36,861 nucleotides of DNA from Opitutia bacterium (lineage in GTDB: Bacteria; Verrucomicrobiota; Verrucomicrobiia; Opitutales; Opitutaceae). Both the position numbers and the translations under genes were made by a program. The notes below the pieces were generated by a model. It was not told the origin of the DNA and ran no database searches. It worked only from the letters and a program-made list of their open reading frames with translations. Within the stretch, counting starts at the first letter, position 1; every line of letters begins with the position of its first letter. The stretch is taken from positions 1-36,861 of the forward strand of contig CANFSZ010000023.1 of NCBI GenBank assembly GCA_947449835.1. The letters are read 5' to 3'. Shown here one piece after another: positions 30,790-33,683 of the stretch.

Positions 30790-32163
30790 TCAATTGAGCG
30801 CGAGAAGCCGCGCGAGACGTTGCTCGACGCGGTTCCGTCCCAGCACCCGGAAAATACTGGTGATGCTGGGTCCGGCGTTCGTCCCGGAAACGGCGAGCCG
30901 AGCGACTGACTGATAATCGCCAAAGCCCAAGCCTTGGCTCGTGGCGAGGGCCTTGATCGCTTCTTCGATCGCGCTGTCGCTGGATAAATCCATAGCGGAT
31001 AACGCCGAGATCAATTCACCGAGGCGCGTCTTCGCTTCCGGCTTGGCCATGGCTTTGTCTTTCACTTTGGCATCGAGCGGAAAGTCGTCGTTGAAAAAAT
31101 ATCCCGTGTAAGCCGGCAACTCCTCGAAACCTTTGATCTTCGGTTGCGCGAGCAACATCACTTCGCGGAACACCTCGGGTTGCGCGAGCGCGGCCACACC
31201 CGCCGGATGTTTTTCGAAAAACGCCTTGGCCTCGGCGACAAATCGCTCTGTCGGCAAAGCGAGCAAGTAAGCCATGTTCATGTGCGCGAGTTTCTTCTCG
31301 TCGAAGCGCGCGTTGCTCTGATTCACCCCCGGTAAATCAAACAATTGGATCACGTCCGAAATGAGCATCTTCTCGCGATCATCCTTCGGGTTCCAACCGA
31401 GCAGACACAAAAAGTTCACCAACGCCTCGGGCAAAAACCCACGCTTTTGATATTCCTCGATGAGCGCGCCTTGGTCGCGTTTCGACATTTTCCCCGGGCC
31501 GTTTTGCTTAAGAATCAGCGGAATGTGCGCGAACGCCGGCACGGGCGCGCCGAAGGCCTTGAACAACTCGACGTGCTTGCTGGTGTTGGAAAGGTGATCC
31601 TCGCCGCGAATCACGTGGGTGATCTGCATCGCGATATCGTCGACGACGTTCACGAAATGAAACACCGGATTCCCATCCGAGCGCACGATCACAAAGTCCT
31701 CATCTTCGACGCGCTCCACATGACCACGGATTTGATCTTCGATCACGGTTGGCGCCACTTTGACCTTAGTGACCGTCTTTTTGCGGTGCTCGTCGTAAAT
31801 TTCATAACGTTCTCCGAGCAGTTTGAACCACACGGCGCCGTCTTTCTCGTAAGTGCGTCCAGCGGCTTTAAGTTTTTCTAAATACTCCGCGTAAATCGCC
31901 GCGCGTTCACTTTGGCGATAAGGACCAAACGCGCCGCCGACCAACGGACCTTCGTCCCAATTCAGACCCAGCCAGCGCAAGGAATCATAGATCACGTTAA
32001 GAAACTGTTCACTGTTGCGCTCCTTGTCGGTGTCTTCGATGCGGAGAATGAAAACGCCACCCGTGTGACGCGCATAAAGCCAGTTGAACAACGCCGTGCG
32101 GGCGCTACCGATGTGGAAAAAACCCGTAGGACTAGGGGCGAAACGAACGCGAACTGGTGACAT
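30790..32163 (-). CDS. gltX: Glutamyl-tRNA synthetase
   Basis: The start at 32163 gives 457 residues beginning [29 protein letters not shown], the classical HIGH region; the open frame to 32370 runs antisense to the neighbouring peptidase gene. Later motifs are [20 protein letters not shown] sequence ([13 protein letters not shown]), [14 protein letters not shown], and [10 protein letters not shown] (KMSKS loop). The C-terminal part forms the helical anticodon-binding region. It charges tRNA-Glu with glutamate in the cytoplasm. With GlnS present as well, it is expected to be the discriminating form. Its ATG overlaps the divergent ATG of the M14 peptidase gene in the palindrome CATG (32161-32164). 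Confidence 0.97.
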
Positions 32164-32650
32164 GATCGGAGAGAAAGATTGCGGCTTGTACTTCGTGGAA
32201 ACGGTCAGCAAGAAGCAGCCCGTGTCCACTGTCAAAGCCGCTCCGTTTGATCCTGCCGATGTCGCCGCGCGCTTCAGCCTCGCGGGTCGTGCGGCCGGCT
32301 TCCGCGTGGAGCAGTACGGCGAAATCGACGGATTTCCATTAATCGCTCTGACCAAGCGCGCGCCGGGCAAGCGCCCACGTATTTATCTTTCCGCGGGCAT
32401 GCACGGAGACGAACCAGCCCCGCCGCTCACGCTGCTGGCGCTCCTTGAAACTAGGTTTTTCGACGAACGCGCGACGTGGTTTATTTGTCCCGTTCTAAAC
32501 CCCACCGGTCTCGTCCGCGGGACGCGCGAAAATGCCACAGGGCTCGATCTCAATCGTGATTTTCTCGACGTCCGCGCCAGCGAGACCCGCGCGCACATCG
32601 GTTGGCTCCAACGCCAACCACCCTTTAACCTCACACTCTGCATCCATGAG

Positions 32651-32661
32651 GACTGGGACTC
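32651..32661 (+). repeat. Left inverted repeat of the inverted segment
   Basis: GACTGGGACTC. Its inverted partner is at 32891-32901; the two match at 9 of 11 positions with GACTC identical at the breakpoint. The end of the sequence that reads as normal peptidase coincides with this repeat. Confidence 0.65.
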
Positions 32662-32890
32662 TAAGGTGTAACTGATCGTCGTATGATGCGCGCGGAGGTA
32701 GATCGCCTCGGGCCAGGTTTCACGTAGCTGCGGGTCGTCGACCGGACGAATGATGCCTGTAGCCGCGGTGGTTCTGCCATCGATCACGGGCGCTTCGTCG
32801 ATGGGACAATATTCCCTAACGGCTTCGAGAATGGGGTTGGCGAGGCTGGGGCGTTGGTGGGGATTTAATTCGTAGAGATAGTAGCCGGTC
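32662..32890 (-). other. Inverted 229-bp interior segment of the M14 peptidase gene
   Basis: Read on the minus strand from 32890, this segment encodes GYYLYELNPHQRPSLANPIL and continues through a PVDDPQLRETWPEAIYLRAH stretch to TTISYTL. In order these are what M14 peptidases of this type have directly after HEDWDS. Joined to the flanks it needs no indel: 229 bases complete one split codon (TC|G) plus 76 codons, and the frame resumes at GAG (32891). The 134-residue minus-strand frame at 32383-32787 is this segment plus chance read-through, not a separate gene. See the first finding. Confidence 0.9.
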
Positions 32891-32901
32891 GAGTCACCGT
32901 C
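32891..32901 (-). repeat. Right inverted repeat of the inverted segment
   Basis: GAGTCACCGTC on the plus strand, i.e. GACGGTGACTC on the minus strand. It is the inverted partner of 32651-32661 (9 of 11 identical). Immediately after it the frame of the peptidase resumes with its C-terminal region. Confidence 0.65.
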
Positions 32902-32957
32902 GGCTTTTCCGCTCGAACATCGGATTACAGCTCATCGCGCGGCCATCACCAGTGCCA

Positions 32958-33683
32958 CTACGCGATTAATCCACGATTTAGACAAAAAGTCCGCATATCC
33001 GCCGCCATCTCGGCCTTGAAAATCTGCGGCGCACCCACGGCGCTCAAATCAATCTCGGCGCAATGTAGCGCCTGGCGCGGCAACAATAATTTCTCCTCCA
33101 GCGCCGCCGACCAGCCCTTGGTTATAAAGTCCAAATAAAGCTGCGCATCTGGCCCGTAGATTTTGTCCCCGACTAACGAATGCCCCAACCACTGCGCGTG
33201 AGCGCGAATCTGATGCTTGCGTCCGGTCTCTGTCACCACCCGCGCTAAGGTAAATCCGCCCGCCGCCACTAACGGCGTGAAATGCGTGACCGCAGCTTGG
33301 CCGCCTTCAACCACCGTCGACTTGATAAATACCGGACTCGCCCGGTCATCGCCGAGCGGTTGATTCACCGTAACGGGCGCTGGCAATTCGCCCGACATCA
33401 CCGCGAGATAAACTTTGCCGGCTTTGCGATCCATCATGGCCGTCTGCAGCACGCTCGCCATCTTGGCGTCTTTGGCGAGCACCACGACGCCGCTGGTCTC
33501 GCGGTCCAATCGAAAGACCAAATGCATCGTCGGTAAACCCGTGTACTCGCGAGCCGCTCCGACCAGACTCGACCACGGCCCCGCCTTCGACGGATGGCAC
33601 ACCACGTCGCCGGGTTTGTTTACGACGAGCAAGCGATCGTCCTCATAAATTACCCAAGATTTGATCTCTTCGAGCGTGATCAT
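32958..33683 (-). CDS. RluA-family pseudouridine synthase
   Basis: The start at 33683 gives 241 residues (MITLEEIKSWVIYEDDRLLV); a GTG at 33785 that overlaps the SDR stop (GTGA) would add 34 residues. RluA-family features are LLVVNKPGDVVCHPS near the start, MHLVFRLDRETSGVVVLAKD with the catalytic Asp in RLDRETSG, KVYLAVMSGEL, and VVTETGRKHQIRAHAQWLGHSLVGDKIYG. No S4 domain precedes the catalytic domain, as in the shorter RluA/RluC-like members. It converts uridine to pseudouridine in rRNA or tRNA; the target position cannot be predicted. The last 62 bases overlap the restored tail of the M14 gene, antisense. Confidence 0.9.
   Translation of the reverse strand: MITLEEIKSWVIYEDDRLLVVNKPGDVVCHPSKAGPWSSLVGAAREYTGLPTMHLVFRLDRETSGVVVLAKDAKMASVLQTAMMDRKAGKVYLAVMSGELPAPVTVNQPLGDDRASPVFIKSTVVEGGQAAVTHFTPLVAAGGFTLARVVTETGRKHQIRAHAQWLGHSLVGDKIYGPDAQLYLDFITKGWSAALEEKLLLPRQALHCAEIDLSAVGAPQIFKAEMAADMRTFCLNRGLIA

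Follow-up and report, generated by a model that had tools for sequence, protein, structure and literature searches.

The window analysed here is a stretch of 36,861 nucleotides and constitutes an entire contig (C23) of a 3.02-Mb draft genome from the Opitutaceae, which is distributed over 156 contigs and is 86.7% complete. On its plus strand, a truncated open reading frame related to M14/AstE-AspA-like peptidases occupies positions 32162..32671. The frame spans 169 amino acids from the ATG at 32162, and probably 149 from a GTG at 32222, and ends with a stop at 32669-32671. A 229-bp segment at 32662..32890 follows, which encodes the ancestral residues 168-243 on the minus strand, codon 167 being split at the left join. 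The C-terminal remainder of the peptidase gene lies beyond it in the original orientation (32891..33019, plus strand) and is ended by the TGA at 33017-33019. The segment is bordered by a left arm, GACTC (32657..32661), and a right arm, GAGTC (32891..32895), both given on the plus strand. The right arm encodes Glu244-Ser245, with Glu244 forming an invariant column of our protein alignment A1. Both are part of longer, imperfect 11-bp arms on the plus strand (32651..32661 and 32891..32901), which at present match at 9/11 positions. One base of the left arm, the C at 32659, changes codon 166 to Asp; it is A or G (Glu) in all examined relatives and corresponds to the complement of base 32893. The peptidase gene is single-copy in the source genome, as far as a search of the 86.7% complete draft covers it.

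Two genes on the minus strand flank the locus. The divergent neighbour (30790..32163, within an ORF of 30790-32370 with a Met at 32163) is presumably glutamyl-tRNA synthetase-like, to judge from its translation. The convergent neighbour, taken from the ORF list (32958..33785), we assume on the same grounds to be an RluA-type pseudouridine synthase-like protein. The end of the latter ORF and the tail of the peptidase gene overlap by 62 bp (32958-33019). At the other end, the ATG at 32162 in the peptidase frame overlaps the start of the divergent gene (32161-32222 region). The 60 bases up to the GTG at 32222 can be aligned with the nearest relatives, and a shared promoter region may lie there.

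The present stub scores 35.2 bits against PF24827 (AstE_AspA_cat, cut-off 25) and 29.2 bits against PF00246 (Peptidase_M14, cut-off 21.6). When 32662-32890 is flipped, the resulting frame reaches 35.4 and 27.5 bits against the same two models, placing it in the M14/AstE-AspA superfamily. The alignment of the flipped protein with M14 peptidases, on which the initial annotation had made its whole interpretation depend, was thus found. The intact protein of the nearest relative likewise exceeds both cut-offs, and the two small pieces on their own match no Pfam model. By sequence profile, the solved relatives are 2qvp, 3ieh and 3b2y. The intact L002 protein passed the cut-off of no NCBIfam equivalog, including MpaA (32.1 bits vs 157) and N-acetyl-ornithine deacetylase (45.4 vs 400).

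The comparison with relatives suggests that the true start of the gene is probably the GTG at 32222, codon 21 of the longer frame. Among the 29 relative loci, 17 carry Met (8) or Val (9) at this codon, 3 carry another residue and 9 have none aligned. In L014 and L018 the frame is interrupted by stops ahead of this codon. L014 has another stop at residue 273, near the end of the protein.

The inversion leads to a stop after two further sense codons. The stub retains the HGDE motif and the His of CIHED, which we take to be zinc ligands. It lacks eight invariant columns, namely G169, Y171, Y173, E174, Y241, T242, E244 and P246, of which Glu244 is presumably the catalytic Glu of M14. The stub is predicted to have lost peptidase activity.

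Flipping 32662-32890 yields a stop-free frame of 285 amino acids (32162-33019), which can be aligned with relatives over its whole length. Within the 5-bp arms the exact break points are ambiguous: any of six intervals, the outermost being 32657-32895 and the innermost 32662-32890, restores the identical sequence. In a blastn comparison, the L002 locus matches the window in three pieces, 31901-32661 (plus), 32657-32901 (minus) and 32891-33900 (plus), and the same split is seen with other relatives. This bears out the initial description of an M14 frame that ends at the break on the plus strand and has its continuation on the minus strand at 32662-32890. At one fixed offset, 2 kb of the flipped sequence differ from L002 and L003 at 89 and 210 of 2000 positions, which means that no base was gained or lost. 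The segment between the arms was inverted in place with no net gain or loss, and the proposed restoration of the frame without an indel holds. The locus is confirmed to carry an in-place inversion and not decay. The initial annotation was right to call an inversion, though its argument from the precision of the restored frame carries little weight: a frame of at least 280 amino acids also results from 1156 of 15600 arbitrary flips in this region. The proof comes from the alignment with relatives and not from the frame. A standard gene finder would log this locus as a plain truncation.

Homologues were searched in 57 genomes including the source, 39 of which gave a match (38 relatives and the source itself). 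We examined 29 relative loci, and of the nine other matching relatives inspected only G003. All 29 loci give one collinear, uninverted tblastn match running through both break sites, while the window's own locus is found in three pieces on two strands. Among 12 congeners, 11 are uninverted and one (G003) is wrecked in a different way. A second set of 80 loci, kept from 425 related stretches in a scan of genome contigs, is metagenome-assembled in all cases except L091 and covers Opitutaceae, Opitutae and other Verrucomicrobiota. The two sets overlap, L034 and L002 being, by length and range, the same contig. All 80 loci again give one collinear, uninverted match. In this check of relatives, which the initial annotation had suggested, every locus of both sets has the uninverted orientation; the window carries the derived state, and on these alignments the inversion arose on one lineage and is so far unique.

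The arms are short, and such a pairing is rare by chance. At random points 229 apart in the window, perfect 5-bp arms occur in 0.14% of cases and arms matching at 9/11 positions or better in 0.019%. A generic inverted-repeat search was uninformative, as it returned 54 pairs in the same kilobase, many of them longer than these arms. The GACTC arms and the 9/11 repeat are present as initially described; the perfect 5-bp match itself is probably derived and not ancestral, judging from the relatives, which have GAATC/GAGTC. In the five nearest relatives compared, the left arm is GAATC in four cases and GAGTC in one. All 29 of 29 relative loci encode Glu (GAA or GAG) at codon 166, whereas the window encodes Asp (GAC). 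Residue 166 is also Glu in 80/80 loci of the second set, which is partly biased at this residue because one of the two search patterns required Glu. Of the 34 invariant columns in A1, it is the sole one where the window departs. Perfect 5-bp arms at both sites are found in 0/80 loci; wherever both sides encode Glu-Ser, having GA(A/G)TC twice always leaves one mismatch. Before the event the left arm most likely read GAATC or GAGTC, so that no more than 2 bp (GA) would have paired directly where the join formed, within an imperfect arm. Setting 32659 alone back to the ancestral base lowers the 11-bp match to 8/11 by hand count.

The right arm is unchanged in the window relative to the relatives, and the GAC of the left arm matches a copy of it. 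One arm has thus become the complement of the other over 5 bp only, through a single base (32659), with two outer mismatches persisting. When changes are polarised by L003, only 17 of 855 sites are specific to the window, so an independent hit to C at 32659 is unlikely (below 1% by our own estimate). The C at 32659 is a probable footprint of non-reciprocal copying from 32893. This footprint is one base, and a prior A/G-to-C change followed by a conservative inversion would leave the same sequence.

We propose, with a probability of about 70%, that in this Opitutaceae lineage a chromosomal metallopeptidase gene of the M14 type was knocked out by a recent one-off template-switch microinversion. 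The strand being synthesised during replication would have copied ...GACTGGGA (point 1, at or before 32658) and then switched to the opposite strand, entering it at the right arm (point 2, at or beyond 32893). About 230 bases would have been copied backwards before synthesis returned to the original template, again at the right arm (point 4, at or before 32893). In this scheme base 32893 would be used twice, staying in place and also supplying the new base at 32659; the ancestral base there would be lost and the net length would remain unchanged. The mismatched bases 32654 and 32656 still agree with the TGG codon of the relatives, which would place the first jump between 32657 and 32659. In four-point notation we would assign the order 1-3-4-2. 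The jump would have to be inter-strand because point 2 lies ahead of point 1, and PMC7954356, which sets out the four-point description, states the same of forward jumps. Counting against the proposal, that paper also corrects an earlier view in which template switching most often produced single inverted fragments (1-3-2-4). According to PMC8604942, spacer inversion combined with arm homogenisation is an outcome of polymerase template switching, and loss-of-function template switching in E. coli genes is noted; its spacers measure only 2-5 bp, however, and its arms exceed 9 bp. PMC8755829 describes imperfect repeats made perfect by template switching, and also finds very short arms hard to square with two polymerase jumps, proposing microhomology-mediated break-induced replication instead. 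Of the options initially listed, a recent loss by template switching is favoured by the copied-looking base at 32659, but its placement at a 5-bp GACTC does not stand, as the ancestral match was probably GA only. We infer a polymerase mechanism, with the odd base at 32659 arising in the same event, and an inversion that is present in cells and not in reads only.

The last point is where the likelihood of an artefact has to be weighed. A chimera of in-vitro amplification (of the whole genome or the library) or of assembly would mean that the contig was built from one or a few molecules whose middle part was inverted. Template switching by a polymerase in vitro would leave the same footprint, which cannot tell a mutation from a read chimera, and the assembly is a fragmented draft. 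Molecules with both joins would, however, have to outnumber the normal ones, and we infer that arms of 5-11 bp are far under the usual word length of an assembler. Single-cell amplification is not a likely source either, as 11 of the 12 congeners (the source genome aside) are metagenome-assembled genomes. An inversion survey by blastn of 1.23 Mb of the source genome (60 stretches and the window) against 1.58 Mb of G009 (80 stretches) aligned about 523 kb at a mean identity of 90.2%, and the sole in-place inversion was the one at 32662-32890. Tests with planted inversions show that the survey is sensitive to events of at least 150 bp, with recovery of 27/34 (150 bp), 33/34 (229 bp), 34/34 (500 bp) and 32/34 (1000 bp); of those of 40 to 100 bp at most 3/34 were recovered, so the survey is silent on events no longer than 100 bp. 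General scrambling is thus not seen in the surveyed part of the assembly, and we consider a chimera unlikely. A conservative or break-repair inversion, by end joining or microhomology-mediated break-induced replication, would produce the same final sequence, with the change at 32659 occurring separately, before or during the event. The break-repair route is the one preferred for short imperfect arms in PMC8755829. Against the conservative form, inversion of GA(A/G)TC/GAGTC is disfavoured because the change in the left arm would also alter the right arm. It would require residue 166, Glu in 29/29 relatives, to have changed independently, and to the exact base that makes the arm complete. Break-induced replication, like template switching, works by copying and lies close to the preferred reading; the two are taken together here. 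As a whole, we regard the conservative or break-repair alternative as distinctly improbable.

The initial annotation also considered an invertible switch, a programmed intragenic inverton that turns the peptidase on and off. The clean in-place inversion, with flanking inverted repeats that match perfectly over 5 bp, has the expected form, and the genome contains three tyrosine recombinases (Pfam model). None of these is encoded in the window contig, in agreement with the initial remark that no recombinase is visible in the window. By NCBIfam, one of the three exceeds the XerD cut-off, one is best described as XerC but stays under the cut-off, and the third is under all cut-offs; two of them touch DNA-invertase models, far under cut-off. 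A Pfam search of the genome found no serine recombinase, and we found no dedicated invertase near the inversion; with the genome 86.7% complete, a missing invertase is possible. The arms are perfect over 5 bp, shorter than the inverton repeats of 10-40 nt given in PMC11892184, and extend to 11 bp only with 2 mismatches. They are also not conserved, since perfect 5-bp arms are absent from all 80 loci of the second set, and every examined relative shows the same single orientation. A switch is not supported by this evidence and appears scarcely credible. We would give only slightly more weight, as a highly improbable case, to a newborn reversible element, in which the completed arms raise the rate of flipping back and the peptidase is phase-variable in this lineage only, with no dedicated recombinase.

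The peptidase gene is dispensable, because G003 keeps only frame-shifted fragments of it at the same locus. This relative (L254, G003:C102, 1151-1519; a draft of about 79% completeness and 6% contamination) retains only the pieces 5-55, 57-80 and 228-268, with approximately residues 81-227 gone and an Ala at the position of Glu244. The loss in G003 is apparently independent of the inversion in the window. No homologue match was found in 18 of the 57 genomes. The inversion itself is probably young because the flipped frame contains no in-frame stop. We attempted to date it by relaxed selection. The ratio of non-synonymous to synonymous changes is 9 to 8 on the window branch and 7 to 17 on the L002 branch, which leans towards relaxed selection, but the counts are too few for dating.

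Divergence between the window and L002 is uneven along the gene, with 23/229 differences inside the segment and 20/500 and 7/126 in the rest of the gene. The permutation probability of 23 or more differences anywhere in the 2 kb is 0.006. The differences from L003 are alike across the three parts (28/229, 61/500 and 16/126). In flipped coordinates, divergence from L002 is raised at approximately 32704-32962, a tract that starts inside the segment and ends outside it, with 27 differences in the densest 229 bases. On the left, the first differences lie about 42 bp within the segment; on the right, they remain dense past its end. We considered a chimera in which the segment derives from another strain and rejected it, as the divergent tract misses the break points and the distance to L003 is even across the three parts. 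The tract may reflect older recombination or a fast-evolving stretch.

Inversions of related kinds have been described. Chanin et al. (2024, Nature 634:234) reportedly found intragenic DNA inversions that lie within a reading frame, as here, and are reversible, a property that is not supported at this locus. Illegitimate inversions between short inverted repeats in E. coli are said to have been obtained by Schofield and Miller in 1992, with longer arms and in a laboratory assay. PMC3599477 deals with Ureaplasma, in which an inversion at short repeats is proposed to be site-specific; the passages of PMC2483231 consulted were not relevant. Among the matches listed in the literature searched, which covers few subscription papers, there was no comparable one-off inversion in a bacterial coding gene. 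The human-chimpanzee microinversions of PMC8755829 are likewise clean in-place inversions, and the inverted repeats at their flanks are short, as little as 3 nt, and either perfect or imperfect; they differ in being 17-33 nt long and in the break-repair mechanism favoured there. The four-point template-switch model of PMC7954356 has a notation that fits the present inversion as two inter-strand jumps; it is built on great ape genomes, where the commonest patterns create inverted repeats and not plain inversions. PMC8604942 describes REG2 of Saccharomyces cerevisiae YJM339, a case attributed to inter-molecular template switching, which shares with our case the inversion of a spacer between imperfect inverted repeats in a coding gene, the conversion of one arm and an ancestral arm of 5 bp. 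The yeast cases have spacers of 2-5 bp, arms of 10-16 bp in the ten listed genes and amino-acid replacements as their outcome, whereas here the spacer is 229 bp, the arms are 5 bp, the host is bacterial and the gene is broken. The kind of event is known, and this locus is a useful example of it on account of its spacer length, its tiny arms and its bacterial host. The inversion is young enough for both ends and the probably copied base to be read, and it suggests that in a wild bacterium a template switch can flip about 230 bases with almost no homology to guide it. Its simple footprint, a base lost in one arm and kept in the other, could be scanned across genomes, and such scans could separate mutational inversions from true switches.
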